DNA from: Chloroflexota bacterium
GTDB lineage: Bacteria > Chloroflexota > Anaerolineae > VGOG01
Length of the DNA stretch: 33,194 nucleotides
Direction of reading: 5' to 3'
Assembly (NCBI GenBank): GCA_016875995.1
Contig: VGOG01000013.1
Coordinates: 1-33,194 of the forward strand
This document shows, piece after piece, positions 1-30,945 of the stretch (the first letter of the stretch is position 1; every line of letters starts with the position of its first letter). The notes under the pieces were generated by a model. It did no database searches, was not told where the DNA came from, and saw only the letters and a program-made list of their open reading frames with translations. A program made the translations under genes and the position numbers.

Positions 1-1322
1 AGCCTCTCCTGCAACGCCGCACGGCAGGCCAGCAGCGACACACCACCGCCAGGCACCACGCCGTCCGTGATCGCGCCCCGCAGGGCATCGGAGGCCCGCT
101 GTGCCAGTTCCTTGCGGGCATTGATCTCCAATTCCGTCGCCCCACCTACCCACAGCACCGCCGACCCGCCCATCAGTTTGCCAATGCGTTCCTGTAGTTT
201 CCTGCGCACCTCCGGATCGTCGGCCCGTCCAAAGGCGGCGCGCAGGCTGACGATGTGCTTACGCAACGCGCGGGGGTCGCCTTTGCCCCCAACGATGCCA
301 AAATAGGTGCGGTCGGCCCAGGCTCGGCGGGCACGCCCCAGGTGTTGGACCTTTACCCCACTCAGCGTATAGCCCGCTGTCTTTGCCAAAGGACGCCCAC
401 CGCTCAAGACAGCCAGATCCTCCAACGATGCTGCCTGATCACCGGCAGTCATCCCCGGAGTCTGCACAGCGATGGCCTGGAATTTGGCCGGGTCCCGACT
501 CGCCATCAGCAGCAGGGCTATGGCGTTATCGGAAAGCCTGCCCGCTACGATCAGCAGGGAGTGGATTTCAGCCTGCATCGCTGCCTCTATCACGGGTATC
601 AGTTGGCGTGGATCCTCAATATCGAGGTCGCTGATCAAGATGGCGGCGTTCTCCATCTCCGTTCTGAGGCTGGTATGGTCAGTGATCATCTGGCGGGAAA
701 GGATGCCGCCCTTCCAATACATCCCCTCTACGTATTCTCGCTCCAGCTCCCGGCTGCGGCCAGAGCGGATCTCAAGCTGGCCGTACTCGCCAATGATGTC
801 GAAAATCTCGCCCAGCATTTTGGCCAGGGACGGATCATGGCAGATCGTTTCGGCCATCTGGGCGAATTTCTCCTGGCCCTCCAGGTACACCGCCATACCA
901 GTCAACTCATTGAGGACGACCCCCATACCTTTCTCCAGGTAGTGACGCAACGCCATCCCGTTCCCACCGGAGACAATGTAGTGCACGCCCTGATTGTAGA
1001 CCGACTGGAACAACACGGCAGCGGTGGCCGTCCCATCGCCGACCTTTTCGTGCAGACGCCACAACACGTGGCGAAGGAGCATCGCGCCCACATCTTCGTC
1101 GCGGTCGGCCAACTCGATGATGCGTCGGGCAATGACACCACCATCGTCGAGGAGCTCCGGCGCTTTGTCCCTGGGAGATCGCTCAATGGCGACGGTACGG
1201 GGAAGCGGGCCCAGGGTTGGCCGGAGCGTATCGGCGATCTGGTTGATACCCTGTTGTAGGCCTCGATAAGCAGTGGGTTGAAAAACAACTCGTTGAGTCT
1301 GCCGTTTTGCCGCTTTTGCCAT
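1..1322 (-). CDS. Divergent GroEL-family chaperonin (Cpn60 paralogue), C-terminus beyond the left edge
   Basis: About 440 residues are visible from an ATG at 1322; the end of the gene is outside the window. The frame is open throughout and reads as group I chaperonin. It begins MAKAAKRQTQRVVF, has LGP at 37-39, the ATPase motif GDGTATAAVL around residues 95-104 (D96 equals E. coli D87), DDGGVIA at 59-65 (D60 equals D52), and SDAL followed by GVVPGGG near 411-427 (D412 equals D398). The ATP-hydrolysis aspartates are therefore kept. Two regions diverge. The nucleotide loop GPKG reads GPLP. The apical segment reads EGMYWKGGILSRQM, where canonical GroEL has tyrosines and phenylalanine (Y199, Y203, F204) that bind substrate. 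No groES is seen nearby. It is probably a specialised paralogue, not the housekeeping GroEL. The family call is confident; the role is unknown. Confidence 0.85.
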   Translation of the reverse strand, partial: MAKAAKRQTQRVVFQPTAYRGLQQGINQIADTLRPTLGPLPRTVAIERSPRDKAPELLDDGGVIARRIIELADRDEDVGAMLLRHVLWRLHEKVGDGTATAAVLFQSVYNQGVHYIVSGGNGMALRHYLEKGMGVVLNELTGMAVYLEGQEKFAQMAETICHDPSLAKMLGEIFDIIGEYGQLEIRSGRSRELEREYVEGMYWKGGILSRQMITDHTSLRTEMENAAILISDLDIEDPRQLIPVIEAAMQAEIHSLLIVAGRLSDNAIALLLMASRDPAKFQAIAVQTPGMTAGDQAASLEDLAVLSGGRPLAKTAGYTLSGVKVQHLGRARRAWADRTYFGIVGGKGDPRALRKHIVSLRAAFGRADDPEVRRKLQERIGKLMGGSAVLWVGGATELEINARKELAQRASDALRGAITDGVVPGGGVSLLACRAALQER

Positions 1323-1483: not shown

Positions 1484-2947
1484 CTATCTCCGCAGGGTCA
1501 TCACCGTCAGCGAGTGGGCGGGGAACTGGTAGGTGAAATGCGCGGCCACGTCCACCTGGCTCTCCGCTACCCCCACGCGCTCGTGACCGAAATCGTTGGT
1601 GGCATCCACGTCGTCGGCGTTGACCGTGTAGGCCATCGCCGGGCTGGCTGGCTGCCATCCGCCCAGGTCAATCTCCGTCGTCAGCGCCGCTTCTTGGTGC
1701 CGGTTGATGGCTGCCAACGTCAGCGTGTCACCTGCCTCGGACAGGGTGGCGGACACGTCCAGATACGGAAACGGCCCCAGCCCGCGCAGCCGCCGGTCTT
1801 TCGGAGCCTCAGGGAAGGTGTGGGTGTCACACGCCACCCACGCCTCCAAGGCGATGGGCTGGCGGTGGGTTGCGTATAGCAGCAGCGGATAGTAGATCGT
1901 CTGGCGGAACAGGCCGTCCGGCCGGGTGAAGATAGGCGCGATCACGTTGACCATCTGGGCCAGGTTGGCCATGCCCATGGCCCTGGGGTGACGCTGGAAC
2001 TCGTTCAGGTAGGCGGCTACCGCCAGCGCATCGGCCAGGGTGTAGCGCTCCTCGAGCCGTCCCCCCTCGGCTTTCTCGCGGAACCAGACGTTCCACTCGT
2101 CAAAGGCGATGCGGATGGGATGCTCGATCCCCTGTTGAAAGCGGATGGTGTCAATGAGCACTTGCGTCGCCTCAATCATGCGGCCGGCGTGGTGTGGCTG
2201 GAAGACGTTGGCATAGTAGTCACTGCTGCCCGTGTAGAGGTGGATGCTGTGGAAATCCACGATGGGCGCCAGCACCTCCAGCACGATGCGATCCCACTCG
2301 CTGAGGCCGTCCAGACCACAACTGATGAGCTGGATGGATGGATCAACCCACTTCATCAGCTTGGCCGCCTCCCGCGCGTAGCGGGCATATTCTTCGGCTG
2401 GCTTGTGTCCCATCTGCCAGGGCCCATACATCTCATTTCCCAGCCCCCAGTACTTGACGCCGTATGGCTCCGCGTGGCCGCTCTGCCGACGCAGGTTGGC
2501 GTAGAGGGTGTTCCCGCTGCCGTTGCAGTACTCCACCCAGTTACGCGCCTCGTCCAGCGTGCCTGTGCCCAGGTTGATGCAGATGTACGGCTCCGCGCCC
2601 AGATCGCGACAGTAGGCGATGAACTCGTCCGTGCCGAAGCGATTGGACTCCTCGGCGTGCCAGGCCAGTTCCAGGCGCCGTGGCCGCCGCTCCTTGGGCC
2701 CGATACCGTCCTCCCAATGGTAGCCAGAGACGAAGTTGCCGCCCGGCCAGCGCAGGACCGGCGGTCGCAGCCCTTTGGCGGCCTCCAACACATCCCGTCG
2801 GAAGCCGCGGCCATCGCTCAGCGGCGAGCCTTCCTCGTAGATGCCGCCGTAAATGCACCGTCCCAGGTGCTCGATGAATTGACCGTAGATGAGGGGGGTG
2901 ATCCGGCCCAGCCAGCGGTCGGGGTCAATTTTGATGCGTGCGGACAT
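1484..2947 (-). CDS. GH51 alpha-L-arabinofuranosidase
   Basis: A 487-residue protein that should release terminal alpha-L-arabinofuranosyl groups from arabinan, arabinoxylan or arabinogalactan fragments by a retaining mechanism. The N-terminal part is the (beta/alpha)8 barrel: YGQFIEHLGRCIYGGIY at 21-37, LRWPGGNF near 65-72, the acid/base E172 in GLGNEMYG and the nucleophile E284 in AFDEWNVWF. The C-terminal ~150 residues form the usual beta domain. Length fits the family. There is no signal peptide, so it acts on imported oligosaccharides in the cytoplasm. The ATG is preceded by AAGGGGAAAG at a workable distance. Its first 23 bases overlap the end of the upstream UroD-fold gene, which implies translational coupling and places it last in the ribose-type ABC operon. 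Confidence 0.93.
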   Translation of the reverse strand: MSARIKIDPDRWLGRITPLIYGQFIEHLGRCIYGGIYEEGSPLSDGRGFRRDVLEAAKGLRPPVLRWPGGNFVSGYHWEDGIGPKERRPRRLELAWHAEESNRFGTDEFIAYCRDLGAEPYICINLGTGTLDEARNWVEYCNGSGNTLYANLRRQSGHAEPYGVKYWGLGNEMYGPWQMGHKPAEEYARYAREAAKLMKWVDPSIQLISCGLDGLSEWDRIVLEVLAPIVDFHSIHLYTGSSDYYANVFQPHHAGRMIEATQVLIDTIRFQQGIEHPIRIAFDEWNVWFREKAEGGRLEERYTLADALAVAAYLNEFQRHPRAMGMANLAQMVNVIAPIFTRPDGLFRQTIYYPLLLYATHRQPIALEAWVACDTHTFPEAPKDRRLRGLGPFPYLDVSATLSEAGDTLTLAAINRHQEAALTTEIDLGGWQPASPAMAYTVNADDVDATNDFGHERVGVAESQVDVAAHFTYQFPAHSLTVMTLRR

Positions 2948-3992
2948 ACGGTTTCTTTCCCCTTTCTTTCAACTCATTCACGTATCCAGGCTGCTGCTGG
3001 ACTGTCTCGATGAAAGCCAGCATGTTTTCCAGGGGCACATCCCCCTCCACATCGTGGGCCGGAGCAAAGATGTAGCCACCATCGCCGCCGAGTTTCAGGA
3101 GGGACACGGTCTCCCGACGGACATCATCGCTGGAGCCGTAGGGCAGGGTCCGCTGCGTGGACAGGCCTCCGTGGAAAGCCAGGCGACCACGATAGCGCCG
3201 GATCAGCGAGGTCACGTCCATGACCTCCGGCTGAAAGGGGTTGAAGCAATTCACCCCGATCTCGATCAGGTCATCGAACAGCTCGTCCACGTCCCCACAG
3301 GAATGGATCATCACATACTTGCCCGCCTCGCGCACGACACCGTACATGCGTTTCAGCACGGGATAGATGAACCTGTGCCACATAACAGGCCCCATCTGCA
3401 GGCCACGCTGCATGCCCCAATCATCTCCGAAGTAGACGGCGTCAATGTCGTATTGCAGGGCCTGCTTGACCTGGGCGATGTTATAATCGGCGATGGTGTT
3501 CAGCAGGTCGTGGACGAAACCTGGATGGTCGTGGAAATCCATCGTCAGGTTTTCCCAGCCGCGCAGCGTCCAGGCTCTCTCCCAGAGCGAAAAGCCGATC
3601 TGGAAGACGCGGAAGCGGTCGCCTTGTCTCTCGATTCGAGCGGGGATATCGGCGAAGAAGCGGGGGTCCAGGGGGTCAGGAAAGCCGTAGCTTTTGAGCG
3701 TGGGGTGCGGCAAAACGCGGTTCTTGGGGGTGCCGATGTCCTGGTCAATGCTTCTGTCCCATATCACCCCAAACACGTCCTGGAAACAGTCATCGCCGAG
3801 GTCGGTGAAAAACCCGATGTCGCTTCCCAAGCGGAGAAAGTGGTTTTGTAGTACGTCTTCCAGATCAGATTGGCCAAAATGCTGCTGGAGCTTCTCCCGC
3901 GCTTCTTTGGTCAATCCGATGCTCCAGGGAACGTAGGGCGGACGTTTGGCCTCCAGTGCAAGTTTAACGACTTCTCGCCTTGCCATTTTCAA
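2925..3992 (-). CDS. UroD/MtaA-fold protein 1 (putative methyltransferase-like)
   Basis: A 355-residue protein of the uroporphyrinogen decarboxylase superfamily (COG0407 type). It is not HemE: the N-terminal RQAGRY-like motif of true uroporphyrinogen decarboxylases is missing. Visible landmarks are WERAWTLRGWENL at 137-149, YFGDDWG at 187-193, IHSCGDVDELFDDLIEIG at 229-246 and PAHDVEGDVPLENM at 311-324. The H230-x-C232 pair matches two zinc ligands of the MtaA/MtbA methylcobamide:CoM methyltransferases. The position of their third ligand, a cysteine, holds H313 here. A second in-frame ATG lies two codons in (3986). Neither start has a good ribosome-binding site. It is the third of three paralogues in a row. 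The substrate is unknown; the methyl-transfer role is inferred from the family. Confidence 0.8.
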   Translation of the reverse strand: MKMARREVVKLALEAKRPPYVPWSIGLTKEAREKLQQHFGQSDLEDVLQNHFLRLGSDIGFFTDLGDDCFQDVFGVIWDRSIDQDIGTPKNRVLPHPTLKSYGFPDPLDPRFFADIPARIERQGDRFRVFQIGFSLWERAWTLRGWENLTMDFHDHPGFVHDLLNTIADYNIAQVKQALQYDIDAVYFGDDWGMQRGLQMGPVMWHRFIYPVLKRMYGVVREAGKYVMIHSCGDVDELFDDLIEIGVNCFNPFQPEVMDVTSLIRRYRGRLAFHGGLSTQRTLPYGSSDDVRRETVSLLKLGGDGGYIFAPAHDVEGDVPLENMLAFIETVQQQPGYVNELKERGKKPYVRTHQN

Positions 3993-4114
3993 AACTCAGC
4001 CAATACAAATTCTGAGCAGAGCGGACTCCCACGCCCAATGGCACTAACTTTTCAGGCCGCGCGGGCATGATGAATTTTGAGAGCTCACTCGGGTAACCGC
4101 AGGATGATGCTGCA

Positions 4115-4135
4115 CTACAGCTTGGAAAGCTGTAG
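4115..4135. promoter_or_regulatory. Perfect small stem-loop in the UroD1-UroD2 spacer
   Basis: Nine-base arms CTACAGCTT and AAGCTGTAG around a 3-base loop (GGA on the plus strand). It lies downstream of UroD2 in the transcribed strand and is the second of two perfect inverted repeats in this 239-bp spacer. No T-run follows it, so it is not a simple terminator. It could be an mRNA-stability or attenuation element. Confidence 0.55.
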
Positions 4136-4178
4136 ATTGAGTCCGTTCATATCTTCAAAAAGGCTGTCCTCTGCCCAA

Positions 4179-4200
4179 ACTACATCATTAATGATGTAGT
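4179..4200. promoter_or_regulatory. Perfect 22-bp palindrome, possible operator or mRNA hairpin
   Basis: The two 10-base halves ACTACATCAT and ATGATGTAGT flank a central TA and match exactly across all 22 bases. It is AT-rich and sits 31 bases after the end of UroD2 and about 190 bases before UroD1. The symmetry suits a dimeric DNA-binding protein. It does not resemble the LacI-type operators elsewhere in the window. As RNA it would fold with a TTAA loop. The rest of the spacer shows no convincing promoter. Confidence 0.6.
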
Positions 4201-4231
4201 GTCACTTTGCCATACCACCGTCTCACTACCT

Positions 4232-5380
4232 TCAGTACTTTCCGTATTCGAGGGCGGTCTCAAACAGGGTGACGATGTTTTCAGGAGGGACCAGTGCCTG
4301 GATGTTGTGGACGGCGGCGAAGACGAATCCGCCGCCAGGGGCCAGGTCGTCAATGCGTCGCCTGACCTCGTCGGCCACATCTTCCGGTGTGCCGAAAGGC
4401 AATACATGCTGGGTATCAACCCCGCCGCCCCAGAAGACGATGTCTTGGCCATACTCTCGCTTGAGTCGTTTGGTGTCCATGCCCCGCGCCGAGACCTGGA
4501 CCGGGTTGAGAATGTCGAAGCCCAGCTCGATCAAATCCGGGATCAGATCATAGACCGCCCCGCAACTGTGATAATAGACCTTGGCGTCTGTCTTGCTCTT
4601 GATCGCCTCCAGCAGGCGGCGTTGTTTGGGCTTGATCATACGGCGGTAAAGGTCGGGCGAGATGAGCCAGCCATCCTGGCCGCTTACATCGTCCCAATAG
4701 GTGAAGACCTGGAGGTATGGCCCCACCTGCTCCAGATAGTTGTGGCAGGACTCGATGTAGATTTCAGTGATCTGCTCCATCATTCGGTCGGCGAATTTCG
4801 GCTCTTTGACCAGGGCGATGAGGAAATTCTCCAGGCCCATGGTTCTGGCCGGTTGCTCAAAGATGCCGCCGCCGATGACGGCGCTGCCGACCAGGGCATA
4901 ATCGGTGTTTTCGTAGAGGTACCTGGCCTGCTGGCGAAGTCGGGCATTCACCTCTGGGGGGTCGGGGCGCGGCCAGGTATAGCCGTCCAGGGCTTTCATG
5001 GTAGCTTCCTTGATGGGAAAGTCCACCCAGTCGAAGTACAGTCCCTCATGTTTGGGCATGTGCAGCTTGGAGCCCCAGCGGTCAATGAAGGCGTAGTAGT
5101 CGCCGTCCTCGAAGATGTTCACGTCTGGCGCAGTAGCGGCGGGCAACTGGACCATCCGGAAGTCCACGCCGAAGCGCTCCAGAAGGGCCTCGTCCAGGTA
5201 GGGCAGTTGCTGGACGTAGTCTAGCATCCTGAGCTCCTCCACCTCCAGCCCCAGGTGTTTCTTGAGCGCGATGTAGGCGTTTTTGTGGATGGAAGAGCAG
5301 ATCGTACCGCCCAGATCAATGGGGATGCGGTCGGGCTGTTGGTGATTCAGGGCTAACATGACCCGTTCGCGTGGATTCAT
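4232..5380 (-). CDS. UroD/MtaA-fold protein 2 (putative methyltransferase-like)
   Basis: A 382-residue paralogue of the flanking genes, with the typical opening MNPRERVMLALNHQQPDRIP and a TIM-barrel URO-D domain over the full length. Motifs: WDDVSGQDGWLISPDLY at 229-245, YYHSCGAVYDLIPDLIELG at 269-287, VDTQHVLPFGTPEDV at 321-335 and AAVHNIQALVPPENI at 355-369. H271-x-C273 could bind zinc as in MtaA/MtbA, with H358 in place of their third cysteine ligand. HemE signatures are absent. The ATG has no Shine-Dalgarno sequence; it follows a CCTCC-rich heptad repeat that fills the junction with UroD3. Family assignment is solid. Reaction and substrate are not known, and annotation as heme-pathway UroD would be wrong. 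Confidence 0.82.
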   Translation of the reverse strand: MNPRERVMLALNHQQPDRIPIDLGGTICSSIHKNAYIALKKHLGLEVEELRMLDYVQQLPYLDEALLERFGVDFRMVQLPAATAPDVNIFEDGDYYAFIDRWGSKLHMPKHEGLYFDWVDFPIKEATMKALDGYTWPRPDPPEVNARLRQQARYLYENTDYALVGSAVIGGGIFEQPARTMGLENFLIALVKEPKFADRMMEQITEIYIESCHNYLEQVGPYLQVFTYWDDVSGQDGWLISPDLYRRMIKPKQRRLLEAIKSKTDAKVYYHSCGAVYDLIPDLIELGFDILNPVQVSARGMDTKRLKREYGQDIVFWGGGVDTQHVLPFGTPEDVADEVRRRIDDLAPGGGFVFAAVHNIQALVPPENIVTLFETALEYGKY

Positions 5381-5385
5381 AGTTT

Positions 5386-5456
5386 GGAAGTTGGAGGTTG
5401 GAAGTTGGAGGTTGGAGGTGCATGATCCACCTTCTAACCTCTAATCTCTAAACTCC
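5386..5456. repeat. Heptad array with inverted copies, UroD2/UroD3 junction
   Basis: Five heptads of the form GGARGTK lie end to end at 5386-5420. After an 8-base spacer come four pyrimidine heptads of the form AMYYTCY at 5429-5456, giving a long imperfect hairpin. The last codon and the stop codon of UroD3 (TAG at 5448-5450) lie inside the second set. See also 6543-6606, 7692-7760, 8563-8634, 14137-14152 and 19448-19531. Confidence 0.85.
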
Positions 5457-6539
5457 AGTTATGGTATTGACCATAGCCCAGAAGTTTTCCAGGGGGGTAT
5501 CCAGTTGCACGTGATGGGTCGGGCCGATGATCAATCCGCCGTTCTTGCCCAGCGTTTTCAGGCGGGTGATCGCTTCTCTTTCCACCTCGGCCGGTGTTCC
5601 AAAGGGCAGGGTGTATTGCTCATCTATCGAGCCCCAGAAGCACAGTTTGTCCCCGTACTCCTTTTTCAGTTTCTCAGGATCCATGCACCTGGGCTGAACT
5701 GGATTCAGAATGTCCAGGCCGATTTCGATCAGGTCGGGGATGATGGGGTAGATATTGCCGTCCGAATGATAGGCCACTTTCACGTCTGGATTGATGCTCT
5801 TCAGGCTGGAGATAAACGTCGCCAGGCGGGGCTTGAGGAAGCGGCGCCAGGTTTGGGGTGAGATGAGCATCCTATCCTGAGCGCCCACGTCATCCCCGAT
5901 CCAAATCATGTCTACACCCATTTGCACCAGCTTCTTAGCGGCAGTGAGGTGGTAGTTGAACGGTATATCTAAAAGTCTTTCGATGAGATCAGGATGGAGC
6001 GCCAAGTCCATCAGTGTCTTCTCGTATCCTCTGAGCGCCCAGGCGGTTTCAAAGATCGTGGTCACCGTCACGCCCACGATCCAGTATTCGTCCTTGAATT
6101 CCTTGATCACCCTTTCCGTTTCGACGTATAACTCAGGCCGGTTCGGATCGGGCGGTTGATATGACTCTACCGCTTTATCGTCGGCCAGAGGATGACCCAC
6201 TATTTCGGTATAACGGCCTTTGCCGAATCTGGTTTCATATTCTATGTTCTTCCATCCCACTCCCCACTCATCGGTATAGGAAACGCCGTCCTCACTGTAG
6301 AGCTCAGTGGCGTAGTAGGAGTTGGCCCATCCTACAGACGTTAGAAGCATGTCCTGATCCAGGATGCGCTCCAACACGTACGTGTTACCACCTCCGTGGG
6401 GGTTGTAGAAATCTTCATCTTTGAGCCCCAAGTCATCCTTAAGCCTGGTGACGAATTCAGGCGTAAAGCTGATCTGCATGGGACATCTATCAGGCTCCTC
6501 GTGGTGGAGAGCCATGAGTACTCGATCTCGATGCTTCAT
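5448..6539 (-). CDS. UroD/MtaA-fold protein 3 with HSDG in place of HSCG
   Basis: A 363-residue paralogue starting MKHRDRVLMALHHEEPDRCP from the ATG at 6539. A longer TTG-initiated frame to 6587 would only add repeat-derived residues. Motifs: ETAWALRGYEKTLMDL at 164-179, WIGDDVGAQDRMLISP at 213-228, AYHSDGNIYPIIPDLIEIG at 256-274, DEQYTLPFGTPAEV at 306-319 and GPTHHVQLDTPLENF at 339-353. The cysteine of the H-x-C pair is replaced by D260, so metal binding, if any, must differ from its two neighbours. There is no Shine-Dalgarno sequence before the ATG; the leader is a heptad array. It is the first of the three UroD-fold genes after the ABC permease. Confidence 0.82.
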   Translation of the reverse strand: MKHRDRVLMALHHEEPDRCPMQISFTPEFVTRLKDDLGLKDEDFYNPHGGGNTYVLERILDQDMLLTSVGWANSYYATELYSEDGVSYTDEWGVGWKNIEYETRFGKGRYTEIVGHPLADDKAVESYQPPDPNRPELYVETERVIKEFKDEYWIVGVTVTTIFETAWALRGYEKTLMDLALHPDLIERLLDIPFNYHLTAAKKLVQMGVDMIWIGDDVGAQDRMLISPQTWRRFLKPRLATFISSLKSINPDVKVAYHSDGNIYPIIPDLIEIGLDILNPVQPRCMDPEKLKKEYGDKLCFWGSIDEQYTLPFGTPAEVEREAITRLKTLGKNGGLIIGPTHHVQLDTPLENFWAMVNTITGV

Positions 6540-6542
6540 TTT

Positions 6543-6606
6543 GGAGGTTAAAGGTTCGAGGTTCGGGGTTGGAGATCTAACTTCCAACCTCCAATTTCCA
6601 ATCTCC
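6543..6606. repeat. Heptad array with inverted copies, permease/UroD3 junction
   Basis: Heptads GGAGGTT, AAAGGTT, CGAGGTT, CGGGGTT and GGAGATC at 6543-6577 are followed by four exact AAYYTCC heptads at 6579-6606. This fills the spacer between the permease stop (6612) and the UroD3 ATG (6539). The unit is the same type as at 5386-5456. Confidence 0.87.
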
Positions 6607-11027: not shown

Positions 11028-12116
11028 CAGCATCTCCAAAATGGCGGGGCGCGCGAATGTCTGGCCGTTTACTGTCACCAGCAGCGTCGGCCAGTGCTCG
11101 ATAGCGGTGAGCACCTCGTTGCCCGCCTCGCCCACCAGGATGGTGTCCTCCGACTTCGTCCCGCTGATGGACGGGTTCCAGGCATAGACCTGTCCGACCG
11201 AGACGACGTCGGTCGAGCCGGGCGTGGCGACGTACTCGCGGGGCTCGTAGCCCGCCGGGCCGCCCTGATGATGTAGACGCCACTCGTCGGGAAAGCCAGC
11301 TTCGGCATAGGCGCCCATCCCGCGCCGGAAGATCTCACCGAGCGACCGGCCAGGGCGGGTGGCGGCGATGAACGTGGCGTCAACCTGTGCCACCGCCTGG
11401 GCTTTGCGACGCAGATTGTCTGGCAGACGGCCGAAGTGAACGAACCGCGTCAACGAGCACACCAGCCCCCACCGTCGTCCGCACAACACGAGCATGGCGT
11501 ACCGATCGAGCTTCTTGTCGGTAGGCAGCGGGTGGCGGAAGGCAAAGATACGCTCGTCGGTGGCGATCAGATTCACGATGGCCTGCACGCCACGGCTCTC
11601 CGCCTGGTGGGCCAGGAGCGCGGCGATCTGATACTCGGTCTGGCCGGGGCGGACGGCCCGCACAGCGCTGTCCATGGCCTCGGCGCACAGGCGGCCCAGC
11701 TCTCGAAAGCGCTCGCCCTCCTCGGGGGTCAGATTAGCGCGCCGGCGGGCCAGTTCGCCTGAGAGATCGGTTGCCCCAGGATAGGGCCTGTCGGCGCCGA
11801 GCCTCAATCCCTGGGTCAGTTCGGCCACGGTGTCCTGCGGTTCGTGCCAGGGTGTGACCCGAAACTCCCAACCCTGGGCCGCCAGTTTCTCTTCCTGCTC
11901 CAGGCGCGGGGCCTCGATGTTGTTGGTGATGAGGTAGCGGCCAGAGGGCGTGATCAGCAGCGCGGCCTCACCGTTGGTGGTCGCCGTGTTCACGTACGAC
12001 GCCGCGCCGCACATGGCCCAGGCGAAACTGCTCACCCGCCGCAGGAGCAGCGCATCCAGCTTACGCTCCGCCAGCAGAGCCTGGATACGATCCTGCTTTT
12101 GGCTGAATTCAGTCAT
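11025..12116 (-). CDS. M24-fold (aminopeptidase P/creatinase-like) protein lacking metal aspartates
   Basis: A 363-residue protein with the two-domain layout of Xaa-Pro peptidases: a creatinase-type N-terminal domain (LLAERKLDALLLRRVSSFAW) and a pita-bread C-terminal domain. The start at 12116 puts GAGGAG 7 bases upstream; an ATG at 12122 has it too close. In active M24 enzymes the metal site includes aspartates in VDFG and SDITRT-like motifs. Here these read VLCGRRWGLVCSLTRF (about 210-225), so both are replaced. A histidine in LHHQGG and a glutamate in SEDTILV remain. It may be a metal-free lyase or hydrolase (creatinase works without metal) or a binding protein. It overlaps the GH42 gene by 8 bases, so it belongs to the sugar operon. 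Confidence 0.82.
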   Translation of the reverse strand: MTEFSQKQDRIQALLAERKLDALLLRRVSSFAWAMCGAASYVNTATTNGEAALLITPSGRYLITNNIEAPRLEQEEKLAAQGWEFRVTPWHEPQDTVAELTQGLRLGADRPYPGATDLSGELARRRANLTPEEGERFRELGRLCAEAMDSAVRAVRPGQTEYQIAALLAHQAESRGVQAIVNLIATDERIFAFRHPLPTDKKLDRYAMLVLCGRRWGLVCSLTRFVHFGRLPDNLRRKAQAVAQVDATFIAATRPGRSLGEIFRRGMGAYAEAGFPDEWRLHHQGGPAGYEPREYVATPGSTDVVSVGQVYAWNPSISGTKSEDTILVGEAGNEVLTAIEHWPTLLVTVNGQTFARPAILEML

Positions 12117-14121
12117 TGGCATTCTCCTCGTCTAGCAGTATCAGAACGTCCCGCGGCGCAACGGCGGCCCTCCCTTCGAGGACCGCTGAGCCATCCAATA
12201 GATCCACGTAACGCCCATCCAAAGTGACCTCCTGCTCTCGCTCAGCGTGGTTGAGCACGAACAGCAGCCGATCTCCCTGCCACCGTTCGGTCACCTCGAC
12301 CCCTCTCGGTACGGCGAGGATCTCCTGCACTCCGGCCAGGTTGAGAAGCCAGCCAACCAGCGCCTCGTACAGGCGGGCATCGCCCACGGTGCCCACGTAC
12401 ACCACCTGGCCCTGGCCAAATCGGTTCAGCGTGATGGCGGGCTTACCAGCGTAATAATCCTGGGTGTAGCGTGCAATCGCCGTTGTCCCGTGGGGCTGCA
12501 GCACATCGCACCACACCTTCGCAGCGACGGGGGAGTGGGAAGCCAGTTCGGGCAAGGTAAACTCCACTTCGTTGTACATGTCGGCCCCCAGGGAATCGTA
12601 CTCCTCCACCTCGACGCCGCATAACTCGGCCAGCAGACCGGGCAGCCGCTGGTTCACCACCGCGTTGGCTTCGTCTTTCACGCCGCTGCGGGGAGTGACG
12701 ACGAGCACACCCCCCGCTGCTACGAAGCGCTTGAGGTTCCCAGCAACAGCGTCCGGCAGAACGTGCAAGGCCGGAGCCACGACCAACTGGTAGGACGAGA
12801 GGTCAGCGGTCGGAGCCACGACATCCACCAGGACGTGGCGACGATGAAGAGCGCGATAGACCTGATGGAAATGATTCGGATAACTGAACCCCGGGTTGTT
12901 GGCCTGAATCTGAAAAGCGAAACGCGAGTCGTAGGAGAGGATCATGGCGACAGACGGCTTGACGCTGGAGCCGACAAGCCGCTCGCCAATCGTCTTGATC
13001 TCGGCGCCCATGCGCTTGATTTCCTGGTAACGCCGACCGGCGTGTCCGTCGTGGTCGAGCAGGCCATGCCAGTATTGCTCCGTGCCAAAGCGTGCTGTAC
13101 GCCAGCGGAAAAAGAGGACGGCGTCCGCGCCGTGGGCGATGGCTTGATAGGCCCACAGCCGTAGCTCGCCAGGGCGCGGGGCCACGCTGACCATCTCCCA
13201 GCCGCCTTGCCCCGCCTGCTGTTCCATCACCCAGAAGTTCTGGCGCTTCAGGCCGCGCATGGCGTCGTGAGCGAGGGCGGCATAGCTAGGATCCACCTGG
13301 GCTTGTAGCAGCCAGCCCGTGCGTTGGTAATTATCCCAGGCCACGAAGTCAAGATCACGGGCCAGGTCGAAGTAATTGAGGCCCTCGTAATGGAAGCCAT
13401 GAAAGTTGTGGGTGACGAAATGCTCAGGGCACTTCTCGCGCAGGATGTCCACCTGCATCTGCTGATAGGCCACGTACGAGTCGGACGAGAAGCGGAAGAA
13501 GTCGAGGGCCAGGCCGGGGTTGGGCGAACCGCCGGTCTCGAGCGGCAGGGGGATTTGATCCCAGTCTGTGTAGACATGGCTCCAAAAAATGGTGCCCCAC
13601 TTTTCGTTGAGTTCGTCAAGAGACCCATAACGACGGCGCAGCCAGTCCTGAAATGCGCGAGCGCAGACAGGACAGTAGCAGCGGTCGCCGAACTCATTGT
13701 CAATCTGCCAGCCGATGACCGCCGGATGGTCTGCATAGTGTTCGGCCATCCTGGTCACGATGCGGTGGGTATACTCGCGATAGACCAGGTTGTTCGGGCA
13801 GTACTCGCGGCGATTGCCGAACGTGACCCGCTGACCGTCCTCGCGGACGCGGAAGCTGTCGGGATGCCTGGCCATCAGCCACGGGGGCGGTGAGGCGGTG
13901 GGAGTTCCCAGCACAACACGAATGTCATGAGAAGTCAGGATGTCAATCGCGCGGTCGAGCCAGTCGAAGTCGTATTGTCCCTGTTTGGGTTCCATCCTGG
14001 ACCAGGCGAACTCGGCCAGGCGCACCACGTTGAAGCCCGCCTCGGCCATCAACCGCGCATCCTCCGGCCAACGTTCTTCGGGCCAGTGTTCGGGGTAGTA
14101 GTCAACGCCAAAATAAAACAC
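12109..14121 (-). CDS. GH42 beta-galactosidase 1
   Basis: A 670-residue cytoplasmic glycosidase that removes terminal beta-galactose, and in some family members alpha-L-arabinopyranose, from imported oligosaccharides. The GH42 opening FYFGVDYYPEHWPEERW is clear. The acid/base is E143 in WQIDNEFG, the nucleophile E300 in FWVMEQQAGQ, and the structural zinc cysteines are C108 (EYCPNN) and C148, C150, C153 (CYCPVC). A trimerisation domain and a C-terminal beta domain follow, giving the usual length. Translation starts at GTG (14121), supported by GGAGGAG just upstream and by the family N-terminus. It follows the sugar kinase by 32 bases and overlaps the M24-fold gene. Confidence 0.94.
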   Translation of the reverse strand: MFYFGVDYYPEHWPEERWPEDARLMAEAGFNVVRLAEFAWSRMEPKQGQYDFDWLDRAIDILTSHDIRVVLGTPTASPPPWLMARHPDSFRVREDGQRVTFGNRREYCPNNLVYREYTHRIVTRMAEHYADHPAVIGWQIDNEFGDRCYCPVCARAFQDWLRRRYGSLDELNEKWGTIFWSHVYTDWDQIPLPLETGGSPNPGLALDFFRFSSDSYVAYQQMQVDILREKCPEHFVTHNFHGFHYEGLNYFDLARDLDFVAWDNYQRTGWLLQAQVDPSYAALAHDAMRGLKRQNFWVMEQQAGQGGWEMVSVAPRPGELRLWAYQAIAHGADAVLFFRWRTARFGTEQYWHGLLDHDGHAGRRYQEIKRMGAEIKTIGERLVGSSVKPSVAMILSYDSRFAFQIQANNPGFSYPNHFHQVYRALHRRHVLVDVVAPTADLSSYQLVVAPALHVLPDAVAGNLKRFVAAGGVLVVTPRSGVKDEANAVVNQRLPGLLAELCGVEVEEYDSLGADMYNEVEFTLPELASHSPVAAKVWCDVLQPHGTTAIARYTQDYYAGKPAITLNRFGQGQVVYVGTVGDARLYEALVGWLLNLAGVQEILAVPRGVEVTERWQGDRLLFVLNHAEREQEVTLDGRYVDLLDGSAVLEGRAAVAPRDVLILLDEENAND

Positions 14122-17452: not shown

Positions 17453-19489
17453 TCAGGCCAGCCGGGTGAGAACAGCGACGCCGTAGGGGGCAAGCCTCAA
17501 CTCCTCCCCCACCGATTGCCCGCTCAGATGCTCACGCGCCGGCCAGGGCAGCCGCATTAGTTGCTCCGCCCGCTCGTGGTTGATGGCGATGAAAACCTCC
17601 TCACCCGCTGCGGTCACCCGCCTACGGGCCTCCACCCCAACCGGCGTTTCCATCACCGGCTGCACGCCGGCGGCCGAGGTAATGCGGTCCAGTAGCGATT
17701 GCTGCGAGACCTCATCGAGATACGCACCGACGAAAACCACGCGCCCCTGGCCGTGCGGATGCACCGTGACGGCAGGGTGACCATTGAGCCAACCATTGGA
17801 CTCGCCGTACCTGGCAATAACCTGGGTGCCAGTTTCATCCAGCACCCTGAGCCGCTCCGCCCAGAGACGGGATGTGCCGGTGAACCACTCGCCCGCAACC
17901 GGCACAGGGTCCAACAGTGCGTAGTACTCGACGATTTCGACGCCGGCCAGGTCAACCAGCGGCCCGGGCTGCCGCGAGGGCAGGAGGGCGTTGTAGTCAT
18001 CCTTCATCCCGCAGCGGATGGTCAGCACCAGATGTCCGCCACGGGCCACAAAATCCCTCAGCCGGGCAGCCCGACTCTCGTTCAACATCAGTAAGGCTGG
18101 GGCAATCACCAACTTGTAGTTGTCAAGCGGCGTGTCGGCGGAGATGACATCGGCGGCGATGTTTCGCGCTGCTAACGGGCGGTAGTAGTGGTTGAAGTGC
18201 GCTACGTAGTCGAAGTCGCGATGATGACGCTGCCACTGAATCGCCCAGCGGCTGTCGTAGGAGTTAAGAAGAGCCACCTCTGAGACAACCGCGGAATTGG
18301 CCAGTAGAGAGGAAACCGCAGCGAAGTCCCGGCCCAGTTGTTGGGCTTCCTCGTAGAATGGCCGGGGCTGGCCCGACGGGTCTACCAGCGTGCCGTGGTA
18401 TTGCTCCTGCCCGCCCAGGGCTGAACGCCACTGCCAGTACAGCACCGCATCCGCGCCGTGGGCTACCGCCTGCCAGGCCATGGCCCGCGCCTCACCTTTG
18501 TTGAGCATGTTGTTGATGGCCGACCAGTTTACGCTGCCCGGCTGGGTCTCCATCAGCCAGAAGTTGCGGCGCTTGAAGCCGCGCGTGAGGTCGTGGGCTG
18601 CACCGGAGCTCAGATAATCGTGATGGCCCGTGCCCACGTACCAGTCCCACGAGGCCAGGTCGAGGTCTTCGGTCAGCGCGTAATGGTCAAAGCCGTCGAA
18701 CCAGCCCATGAAGTTGTGCGTGACCCACACACCCCCCCCTGCCCCCCCCACAAGGAGGAGGGGACGCAGGTGCGGTCGCAAGACATCAAGCTGAAGCCGC
18801 TGGAACTGGCGATAGCTTTCGGTGACGAAGCGCTTGAACTCCAGCATTAGTCCGGGGTTGTGCAGGCCGATGGGGATGGGGATCTGCTCCCAGGCGGAGT
18901 AGGTCTGGCTCCAGTAGCGGGTGGTCCAGTGGGCGTTGAGGGCATCCAGCGAGCCAAACTTCTCAGCCAGGTAACGCTGGAAGAGGCTCCGGCAGCGGTC
19001 GCAATAGCAAACGCGGTTATACTCGTTGTCCAGTTGCCAGCCGATGACGTGCGGGTTCGAGCCAAACCGTTCCACCATCGCGCCGACGATACGGCGGGTT
19101 GCGGCGTGAAACTGCGGCGAATTGACGCAATAGTGGCAGCGGTTGCCGAATTGGACGTGGCGTCCGCTTTCATCAACAGCCAGCAAGTCTGGGTGCTGCT
19201 CGACCAGCCAGGCGGGCGGCGCAGCGGTGGGGGTTCCGAGAACGGTGGCTATACTGGCGGAAGCCAGGGCCGAGATGGCGCGATCAAGCCAGTCAAGGTG
19301 GAAGTCGCCCTCCGCCGGTTCGAGGGTGGACCAGGCAAACTCCGCCAGGCGGGCCACGGTCAGCCCGGCCTCGCGCATCAGGCGGATGTCTTCCGGCCAG
19401 CGTTCCTCCGGCCAGTGCTCAGGGTAGTATGCCGCGCCGAGGTGAAGACAGGTCACAGGTCGCAGGTCACAGGTCGCTGATTCCCTCAT
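17453..19489 (-). CDS. GH42 beta-galactosidase 2 with a repeat-encoded insert
   Basis: A 678-residue paralogue of the GH42 at 12109-14121. The core starts at LGAAYYPEHWPEERWPED. Acid/base E156 lies in WQLDNEYN, nucleophile E314 in FWLMETQPGS, and zinc cysteines are C121, C161, C163, C166. Two oddities are visible. The first ~16 residues are translated from a heptad repeat that spans the junction with the isomerase gene, and the ATG itself lies in that repeat; a GTG at residue 12 is an alternative start. Residues about 240-254, LRPLLLVGGAGGGVW, come from a G/C-run palindrome (18731-18770) inserted just before VTHNF, where GH42-1 has only LREKCPEHF. The catalytic residues are intact, so activity is likely. 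Confidence 0.92.
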   Translation of the reverse strand: MRESATCDLRPVTCLHLGAAYYPEHWPEERWPEDIRLMREAGLTVARLAEFAWSTLEPAEGDFHLDWLDRAISALASASIATVLGTPTAAPPAWLVEQHPDLLAVDESGRHVQFGNRCHYCVNSPQFHAATRRIVGAMVERFGSNPHVIGWQLDNEYNRVCYCDRCRSLFQRYLAEKFGSLDALNAHWTTRYWSQTYSAWEQIPIPIGLHNPGLMLEFKRFVTESYRQFQRLQLDVLRPHLRPLLLVGGAGGGVWVTHNFMGWFDGFDHYALTEDLDLASWDWYVGTGHHDYLSSGAAHDLTRGFKRRNFWLMETQPGSVNWSAINNMLNKGEARAMAWQAVAHGADAVLYWQWRSALGGQEQYHGTLVDPSGQPRPFYEEAQQLGRDFAAVSSLLANSAVVSEVALLNSYDSRWAIQWQRHHRDFDYVAHFNHYYRPLAARNIAADVISADTPLDNYKLVIAPALLMLNESRAARLRDFVARGGHLVLTIRCGMKDDYNALLPSRQPGPLVDLAGVEIVEYYALLDPVPVAGEWFTGTSRLWAERLRVLDETGTQVIARYGESNGWLNGHPAVTVHPHGQGRVVFVGAYLDEVSQQSLLDRITSAAGVQPVMETPVGVEARRRVTAAGEEVFIAINHERAEQLMRLPWPAREHLSGQSVGEELRLAPYGVAVLTRLA
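18731..18770. repeat. G/C-run palindromic element inside GH42-2, in frame
   Basis: The coding strand reads CCCCTCCTCC, a short loop, then two G8 runs separated by CA. It matches the right half of the elements at 27201-27250 and 30559-30657. It encodes the Leu/Val/Gly-rich insert at residues about 240-254 that the other GH42 of this window lacks. Confidence 0.7.
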
Positions 19490-29535: not shown

Positions 29536-30945
29536 TCAAACCGTGTCATTGCGAGGAGCATTTTTCTGCGACGAAGCAATCTCCTCCTTGCATGTGGGGA
29601 TTGCTTCGCTTTGCTCGCAATGACAGCCTGAGGAGTCATAATCGAATACAAAGACAGACTTGACAACCTGGTGTCGGCCTTTGTCGGCCGTGACAGCCAG
29701 GGCTCGCCTATAGTCATCCAATCTGAACCGATGGGTCACCATCGGAGCCAGGTCCAGCTTGCCCTCGGCCATCCAATCCAGGGCCAACTGAAAGGTTCGC
29801 ACCCGCTGGCTCTGGAACGTCTCTGTGCTGCACCAGTAGCTGCCTTTGATCGTCAACTCGTTCAGCCAGATGGGAGTCCAGTCCACCCCTTTGGGGATGG
29901 CGGCCAGGCCCACCAGGACCACCGTGCCGCCGCTGCGGGTCAGGCGCAGGCTGTCGTCAATGCTGCTGGCGTTGCCCACGCACTCGTAAACGACGTCGGC
30001 CCCACCCACCAGGACCCGTTTGCCCAGCAGCGGTTTGTACAGCTTCCCGCCCGTGGCTTGGGCCACGGCCTGAAAATAATCTCCTTCCCGCAGATAGACG
30101 ACCTCATCGGCACCGAACCTGCAGGCCATCTCCCCCTGGAAAGGATACTTGGCCACCACGATCACCTGTGCGCGGCTACCTAACACCCGCAGCGCGGCCG
30201 CAATACATAGCCCGATGACCCCTGCTCCCAGTACCAGGACTGTATCGTCGTCCTGGGGAAGATTGCGCATCACCGCATGGAGAGCGGTGCAGAATGGTTC
30301 GACCATCAGGGCATTCTCGTCGCTGACGTTATCGGGCACGGAGAAGAGTTGAGATTGGTGAGCCACGAAGCAGGGACTCCAGCTCCCGCCCGTGTCGCGG
30401 CAGGTGCCGATGCTGAAGCCGGGCGACAGGTTCCCTGCGGCGAAGTTCTGGCACAGGGAGAACTCACCTCGCTGGCAGAACTCGCACGGCGGCTCAATGC
30501 CCCGCGTGGCACAGGGCAGCAAAGGTTCGGCCACCACCCGATGGCCGGGCGCGAAACCTTTCCCCCCCTTCATCCCCCCCAACCCTTCGACAGACCCTTC
30601 GTTTCTCTCAGGGCTTCGGCTCAGGGCAGGCTTTGGGGGGGAAAGAGGGGGGGCGCCAACCTCGGCGATGATGCCCACGTTCTCGTGGCCCAGGGTGAAG
30701 GGGAACGAGACAAAGGCCGACAGCGCCGGACTGTCTTTCAAGAAGATGGTGTTCACATCGCTGCCACAGATACCGCCGTAGCGGGTCTTGATCTTCACCC
30801 ACCGGTGGCCAGGGAGGGCAGGCTCGGGCACCTCGCGGTACTGGATCATAGCCAGGGAGCTCCAGAAAACCGGCGGGTAGACCGCGCCGACGGCTTTGGT
30901 CAGCGCATAGCGCGGGATGCTTTGGATCAGTTGGATGGCTTTCAT
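29536..30945 (-). CDS. Zinc-dependent alcohol/polyol dehydrogenase (MDR family) carrying two repeat-derived segments
   Basis: A 469-residue medium-chain dehydrogenase, longer than the usual ~350. Catalytic zinc ligands C60 (GGICGSDV), H87-E88 (LGHENVG) and probably E216; structural zinc cysteines C145, C154, C157, C165; NAD(P) motif GAGVIG at 240-245; VYECVGN near 318-324. The extra length is explained partly by repeats. Residues about 97-129 come from a composite G/C-run palindrome in the loop before FAPGHRVV, and the last 29 residues (from CHCEQSEAIP to RNDTV) are translated from a REP-like element that replaced the original stop. The core looks functional. It starts a four-gene unit; the substrate is unknown. 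Confidence 0.87.
   Translation of the reverse strand: MKAIQLIQSIPRYALTKAVGAVYPPVFWSSLAMIQYREVPEPALPGHRWVKIKTRYGGICGSDVNTIFLKDSPALSAFVSFPFTLGHENVGIIAEVGAPPLSPPKPALSRSPERNEGSVEGLGGMKGGKGFAPGHRVVAEPLLPCATRGIEPPCEFCQRGEFSLCQNFAAGNLSPGFSIGTCRDTGGSWSPCFVAHQSQLFSVPDNVSDENALMVEPFCTALHAVMRNLPQDDDTVLVLGAGVIGLCIAAALRVLGSRAQVIVVAKYPFQGEMACRFGADEVVYLREGDYFQAVAQATGGKLYKPLLGKRVLVGGADVVYECVGNASSIDDSLRLTRSGGTVVLVGLAAIPKGVDWTPIWLNELTIKGSYWCSTETFQSQRVRTFQLALDWMAEGKLDLAPMVTHRFRLDDYRRALAVTADKGRHQVVKSVFVFDYDSSGCHCEQSEAIPTCKEEIASSQKNAPRNDTV
29544..29625. repeat. Palindromic repeat (REP-like), copy 2, forming the dehydrogenase C-terminus
   Basis: Starts TGTCATTGCGAG and ends CTCGCAATGACA, inner arms GAAGCAATC and GATTGCTTCG, flank GCCTGAG, as in copy 1 at 1375-1462. 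It lies inside the dehydrogenase reading frame and provides its last 29 residues; the stop codon is 8 bases outside the element. Confidence 0.87.
30559..30657. repeat. Composite palindrome inside the dehydrogenase gene, in frame
   Basis: Outer C7/G7-run arms as at 27201-27250, with an inner part containing CCCTTCG, CTCTCAGGG and CTTCGGCTCAGGG, related to the palindrome family at 20791 and 31022. It looks like one repeat type nested inside another. It encodes residues about 97-129, including PPLSPPK and GLGGMKGGK. Confidence 0.82.

Follow-up and report, generated by a model that had tools for sequence, protein, structure and literature searches.

A divergent GroEL paralogue of Chloroflexota that has lost the catalytic aspartate D398, encoded beside a seven-bladed propeller gene in nearly all relatives with room for one

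Introduction

The window analyzed here is a 33,194-nucleotide stretch of DNA forming the whole of contig C13 of a Chloroflexota draft genome (G000; 4.29 Mb in 414 contigs), and it begins inside a gene for a GroEL-like chaperonin. A preliminary description presented the product as a GroEL paralogue that keeps the three ATPase aspartates and has an altered substrate-binding face, and proposed that it has specialized or non-canonical clients or lacks the usual mode of GroES binding. The locus raises the question of whether such a protein is still an ordinary GroEL and, if it is not, what it works with.

Results

A Group I chaperonin outside the curated GroEL family

The gene is real. An uninterrupted reading frame of 440 codons begins with an ATG at 1322, runs along the minus strand and leaves the window through the start of the contig, with the C-terminal ~100 residues and the stop codon lying beyond the contig edge (Table 1). 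Its product scores 61.1 bits against a cut-off of 34.3 with the Pfam model Cpn60_TCP1 (PF00118), and so carries a Cpn60/TCP1 domain. The truncated window protein (291.7 bits) and a full-length paralogue encoded on contig C8 of the same genome (359.2 bits) both fall below the 582.1-bit cut-off of the NCBIfam GroEL equivalog TIGR02348. With NF038370 and NF038369, the models for chlamydial GroEL2 and GroEL3, the window protein reaches 50.3 and 80.4 bits against cut-offs of 600. The C8 protein clears the cut-off of one NCBIfam subfamily model that bears the name chaperonin GroEL (379.3 versus 352 bits), with the Anaerolinea thermolimosa copy narrowly under the same cut-off (348.1 bits). The three-domain GroEL fold was found in a model of the full-length C8 paralogue rather than of the truncated window protein; this model (pLDDT 88.4) matches GroES-bound GroEL (5opx) with a TM-score of 0.92 by target length and 0.87 by query. 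Fold and family place the window protein among the Group I chaperonins, outside the GroEL equivalog as curated. PADLOC gave no match for the three proteins submitted. The missing end of the gene was not found elsewhere in the assembly, and the first 150 bases of the window match no other contig except at the C8 paralogue (77%).

Table 1. Positions in the window of the chaperonin gene, its diagnostic residues and the adjoining contig edge
Feature	Position	Strand	Basis
Divergent GroEL-like chaperonin gene, first 440 codons	3..1322	-	ORF; Pfam PF00118; NCBIfam; 62% identity to G000:C8
D60, equivalent of E. coli D52	1143..1145	-	Alignment; D in 27/72 subfamily rows
D96, equivalent of E. coli D87, in GDGTAT	1035..1037	-	Alignment; D in 72/72 subfamily rows
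R409, true equivalent of catalytic E. coli D398	96..98	-	Gap-free register to GGG motif; HMMER alignment to 9rwr
D412, aligns with E. coli H401	87..89	-	Gap-free register to GGG motif
Apical I207-L-S-R-Q211-M212, replacing Y199-L-S-P-Y203-F204	687..704	-	Alignment
GPLP, residues 38-41, replacing GPKG	1200..1211	-	Alignment
Contig edge; expected propeller partner gene beyond	1..2	.	Window is the whole of contig G000:C13

One catalytic aspartate is lost across the subfamily

Residues were compared with E. coli GroEL (GroL, NC_000913 b4143) in a subfamily alignment of 75 rows. Among these are two fragments each of the split genes L108 and L125, one protein with a broken N-terminus (L107) and a stray ORF (L129); gaps are excluded from each denominator. 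The alignment pairs D60 and D96 with D52 and D87, as the preliminary description had it. Its third assignment, of D412 to D398, does not hold. D398 is the 16th residue before a GGG motif shared by the two proteins, the window protein has R409 at the same place with no gaps, and an independent HMMER alignment to the solved chaperonin 9rwr gives the same register. Since R409 rather than D412 occupies the D398 position, the window copy, judged by its sequence, keeps two of the three ATPase aspartates and not three. Across the subfamily, aspartate is found at this position in 0/71 rows, the residue being R in 46, A in 10, K in 6, Y in 3, Q in 2 and N, E, S or T in one each. At the D52 position, the C8 copy has N.

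The reported apical and GPLP substitutions are genuine and subfamily-wide. Tyrosine occurs at position 199 in 0/73 rows (one row has X) and at 203 in two of 73, being replaced in the other 71; phenylalanine at 204 is replaced in 66/72 rows, with M present in 57; and the K51 position is D in 68/71. Relatives sharing these substitutions are roughly 42-71% identical to the C8 copy. No frame problem is seen in the apical region, and one was rejected from the open frame and the subfamily alignment. At least seven of the eight sites that we take to be the apical contacts are still hydrophobic in the window protein, counting alanine, which leaves room for broad client binding.

D398A GroEL is reported to have ~2-3% ATPase activity and to bind ATP normally (PMC3326522, PMC3813556), and still to encapsulate and fold proteins with GroES (PMC3326522). 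Loss of D398 turns the expected enzymology around: the chaperonin probably still binds ATP, and its hydrolysis of ATP is probably impaired. The GDGTxT loop is mostly intact and D87 is present, from which we infer that ATP would still be bound. Since D398A GroEL encapsulates with GroES, loss of D398 by itself leaves a GroES cycle in trans possible.

A divergent paralogue in a genome that keeps canonical GroEL

The genome contains two further Cpn60 matches, namely the full-length divergent C8 copy, 62% identical to the window copy, and a canonical C-terminal end on contig C67. The C67 fragment, at a contig end, is 72% identical over 107 residues to the canonical G017_C11 and 34% over 95 residues to the divergent C8. 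It was considered as the missing end of the window gene and rejected on these identities as a canonical GroEL tail. There are also two groES 5' ends, both cut by contig edges and one with a perfect CIRCE element upstream. Because the genome has this canonical tail and groES, the window copy is not its sole GroEL, and its status as a paralogue stands. The groES ends (L056 and L057, the first 131 bases of contigs C151 and C259) are identical by eye over their first 127 contig bases; one has the CIRCE element and the other lies beside an apparent small heat-shock protein gene. These shared ends are probably why the canonical groESL region failed to assemble.

The phylogeny agrees. For the tree, a quick search rooted on E. 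coli alone, 157 rows were thinned at 80% identity to 100 (which removed L190, L185-L187, L192, L195 and L198). A branch of length 0.84 with SH-aLRT support of 100 separates canonical Chloroflexota GroEL, E. coli GroEL and the groES-linked L199 from 74 divergent rows that include the window protein. The gene belongs to a large clade of divergent GroEL paralogues, mainly from Chloroflexota.

Propeller linkage instead of groES linkage at divergent chaperonin loci

Two samples of genomes were used to examine the neighborhood. In named genomes, a scan turned up relatives at 71 loci, by title 63 from Chloroflexota (with one isolate, Anaerolinea thermolimosa), four from Actinomycetota or Acidimicrobiia, and four from other or unnamed sources. 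The second sample, 60 related genomes among which is that of the window, gave 59 canonical and 21 divergent GroEL-like ORFs, the short fragments G025:C11 and G037:C15 being left out of the counts. The two sets of counts overlap in part, 7 of the 71 loci lying on the same contigs as loci of the 60-genome set. Neighbors come from a greedy choice of ORFs rather than a gene finder, with gene names read by eye.

Clustering the neighbors of the 71 loci reveals one constant companion directly downstream of the chaperonin. By an HMM built from this companion, a propeller gene is next on the same strand in 66 of the 69 loci with at least 300 nt downstream (the other two of the 71 lack this room), is adjacent on the opposite strand in one (L071) and is absent from two (L114 and L120). 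In the 60 genomes a propeller lies downstream of 16/18 divergent ORFs with room versus 0/49 canonical ones, and groES lies upstream of 51/53 canonical ORFs versus 0/20 divergent ones. Searched in reverse, the 14 best propeller matches in these genomes all adjoin a divergent chaperonin; the 15th does not. Of 219 loci, 34 have an exact CIRCE core; every one of these is a canonical groES/groEL locus (two being the same place), and neither CIRCE nor groES was found beside divergent chaperonin loci (219 loci; 20 divergent ORFs). In the window itself there is no CIRCE match, and no groES match beside the chaperonin gene. The window's branch has lost D398 and forms a cassette with a seven-bladed Asp-box propeller gene in nearly all relatives with room for it.

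The two genes also co-vary. Chaperonin and propeller distances correlate with r 0.97 over 22 loci, compared with 0.87 for the chaperonin and the linked MalG-like permease; the partial r is 0.94, and over all 51 usable pairs r is 0.89. The rows compared are related to one another rather than independent. In one 37-row set four rows were left out (L076, L081, L095 and L121), L081 having a stop codon. The gene upstream is MalG-like in 22 of 61 loci and lies on the opposite strand in 13. Since the other neighbors vary, the chaperonin-propeller pair is what is kept. In the C8 cassette the two genes are 5 nt apart. The partner side of the window copy is off the contig, and its partner is predicted to lie just beyond the contig edge; no propeller gene belonging to it was found elsewhere in the assembly, where the sole strong match adjoins the C8 copy.

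Some individual loci deserve mention. In L114 (10744-12464), which has no adjacent propeller, the chaperonin is followed by what appear by eye to be two phytanoyl-CoA dioxygenase genes. L112, which also has a propeller start, and L129 carry Chloroflexota-type chaperonin sequence and come from bins labeled Falkowbacteria and Burkholderiales; these are possibly misbinned contigs or cases of transfer. The cassettes of L065, L074, L081 and L098, from bins named Acidimicrobiia or Actinomycetota, largely agree in gene order and group as one clade (SH-aLRT 99), a pattern that suggests passage of the cassette between phyla.

The partner is a seven-bladed Asp-box propeller

The partner usually has 310-340 residues with about six Asp-boxes and, by eye, no evident signal peptide. 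The AlphaFold model of the C8 partner is a seven-bladed propeller (pLDDT 93.7) with structural matches of Z ~29 to seven-bladed propellers, its fold being closest to GH74, YCF48 and WD40/RACK1 propellers. The best 50 rows of VIA-align comprise WD40/RACK1-type, designed and GH74 propellers, and Ycf48 is not among them. Pfam recognizes Asp-box/Sortilin/Ycf48-like repeats in the partners; none of three partners scanned reaches an NCBIfam cut-off, the Ycf48 model giving 39 against 326 bits. The loop pattern NFGLLDL...NGGRAW is matched in full in 48 of the 68 propeller hits of L059-L129; it misses the other 20, several of them truncated, and so serves as a guide only. The remaining Asp-box proteins of the genome, encoded on C7 and C1, lack it. 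Double-length partner ORFs (627-711 residues) lie beside the divergent chaperonins of L046, L047, L048, L049, L118, L121, L122 and L126, of which L046-L049 belong to the second divergent group.

Possible intermediates include chaperonins that keep D398

A survey of 400 genomes of the phylum first scored at most five candidates per genome. Examined from it were 20 chaperonin loci high on the list, together with 20 propeller loci, of which some came from the 60-genome reverse search. Ten of these 20 high-scoring chaperonins are adjacent to a propeller, three are linked to groES and seven to neither. All seven genomes with neither neighbor have a propeller match elsewhere at an E-value of 1e-50 or better, and five of the six such unlinked propellers examined carry the partner signature. 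Both genes are thus present and unlinked in some genomes (L184-L187 with L208, L212, L200 and L213). L191 is a chaperonin of the divergent clade with both D398 and groES, and L190, which is not in the tree, is of the same kind; L182, L183 and L188 keep D398 and have a propeller of ~670 residues downstream. Propellers of similar size stand without an adjacent chaperonin in several genomes of the f54 family (L202, L204 and L211 among the places examined), which shows that a double-length propeller need not go with a chaperonin.

On the tree, the loss of D398 is a single change. Among 96 rows, with L163 left out for ambiguous letters and the opposite-strand propeller of L071 scored as linked, 61 are propeller-linked without D398, 26 are unlinked with D398, six have neither and three have both (L182, L183 and L188). 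These three rows imply that propeller pairing does not need the loss of D398. Because D398 loss changes once, its coincidence with propeller linkage does not represent many independent events: an independent-pairs test on this once-changing trait gives p = 1, and the Fisher value of 1.4e-13 is computed over related, non-independent rows.

Discussion

We favor, by a little better than an even chance, the interpretation that the divergent chaperonin and the propeller are a dedicated pair, in which the chaperonin binds ATP, turns it over slowly and acts without GroES, and the propeller is its client or stable partner. The chaperonin would assemble GroEL-like rings that bind ATP and split it very slowly, and its altered apical face would bind the co-expressed propeller rather than GroES and general clients. 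Aided by the adjacency of the genes, the ring might capture the propeller as it is made and hold or complete it, by analogy with the way eukaryotic CCT handles seven-bladed WD40 propellers. The contact between the two proteins is proposed from gene order and co-variation. The earlier suggestion of specialized or non-canonical clients, or of unusual GroES binding, is a good fit to these data, given the missing groES link and the propeller gene that adjoins nearly all relatives with room for one; the claim coupled to it, that the ATPase aspartates are kept, was wrong at D398.

The same exchange of groES linkage for propeller linkage could be read as placing the propeller on the ring as a cap or regulator, with one seven-bladed protein on a seven-fold ring replacing the GroES lid or locking the ring. 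Several features would suit a cap: most of the aromatics at 199, 203 and 204 are gone, the modeled propeller is seven-bladed, and the NFGLLDL...NGGRAW loop is conserved in many partners and absent from the C7 and C1 Asp-box proteins. We nevertheless consider this role unlikely. GroES is larger than a single propeller, a cursory look at the propeller revealed no GroES-like mobile loop, and the partner is about twice as long in L046-L049 and others, so that a pairing of seven blades with seven subunits would not apply throughout. An evolutionary version, in which the GroES heptamer was exchanged as co-chaperonin for a single co-encoded seven-bladed propeller matching the ring and ATP became a binding switch rather than fuel, strikes us as rather doubtful; on such an account the order would be groES with D398 (L191, L190), then propeller with D398 (L182, L183, L188), then propeller without D398 (the window's branch).

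Another possibility is that the protein serves as an additional general chaperonin, using GroES from elsewhere in the genome in trans, and that the propeller gene is an unrelated one that travels with it. Canonical groES is indeed present, the C8 model fits the GroES-bound conformation, and D398A GroEL is reported to fold proteins with GroES (PMC3326522). We regard this as distinctly unlikely, since the pair persists while its neighborhood changes, co-varies more tightly than the chaperonin does with the linked permease, and is held by four f81 genomes in which the two genes are unlinked, and since Y203 and F204 are so widely replaced. The neighborhood itself could point to a sensor or scaffold for sugar-uptake operons with ABC permeases, LacI regulators and kinases: a MalG-like permease gene is directly upstream at the 22 loci noted above, the C8 copy begins where a permease gene ends, and by eye the window copy is next to an apparent arabinofuranosidase gene and sugar transport genes. 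The upstream gene falls outside the permease cluster in 39/61 loci, however, and by eye some cassettes are near two-component or unrelated genes, which makes such a role quite improbable. Simple decay of a duplicate toward a pseudogene would account for the lost catalytic residues, and a few members are damaged (the N-terminal part is broken in L107, which shares its contig with L044, and L108 and L125 are split); it is extremely hard to square with a frame open over 440 codons, motifs conserved subfamily-wide, and a diverse tree whose members are mostly intact.

Among known systems, the divergent chaperonins resemble E. coli GroEL in the whole fold (C8 copy) and in the GDGTxT nucleotide loop and the D52 and D87 equivalents (window copy). 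The window protein differs from it in having R for D398, in its replaced apical aromatics and in scoring below the NCBIfam GroEL equivalog cut-off, and the divergent copies differ in that no groES or CIRCE was found alongside and that a propeller gene lies downstream in relatives. Chlamydial GroEL2 and GroEL3 are likewise divergent paralogues that coexist with a standard GroEL in the genome, and we know of no propeller partner for them. CCT is a Group II, hetero-oligomeric chaperonin. It is reported to bind seven-bladed propellers (PMC8544692), and CCT/TRiC with its WD40 clients and PhLP1 offers a parallel for a chaperonin coupled to such proteins; here, in contrast, the chaperonin is of Group I and has the gene of a single propeller next to its own. 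The partner shares the seven-bladed Asp-box propeller fold with Ycf48/HCF136 and GH74, and is set apart from Ycf48 by its score far below the cut-off of that model. GH74 enzymes pair two propellers, whereas the partner is a single propeller in most loci and by eye has no evident signal peptide. We found no description of a GroEL-propeller cassette among the papers of one open-access library, which does not cover preprints.

If the pairing is functional, it would provide a bacterial chaperonin with one dedicated partner that naturally lacks the residue biochemists remove to slow GroEL. How a general folding machine becomes a dedicated one would then be testable in a two-gene system, as would the reason why chaperonins and β-propellers are coupled, as they are in eukaryotic CCT. 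For annotation, a score above the cut-off of a model labeled chaperonin GroEL, such as that of the C8 copy, does not guarantee the catalytic residue or the link to groES.

Other features of the window

A nested inverted repeat, with the structure TGTCATTGCGAG...CTCGCAATGACA around CGAAGCAATC...GATTGCTTCG, is present in two intergenic copies, at 1375-1462, just upstream of the chaperonin gene, and at 29544-29625. It was seen as inverted repeats, and a fixed-pattern search for the repeat upstream of the chaperonin gave no matches. Three consecutive genes at 2925-6587, beside sugar transport genes, appear by eye to be of the uroporphyrinogen decarboxylase type. Two apparent family 42 β-galactosidase genes, at 12109-14121 and 17453-19489, lie by eye in one sugar-use cluster.
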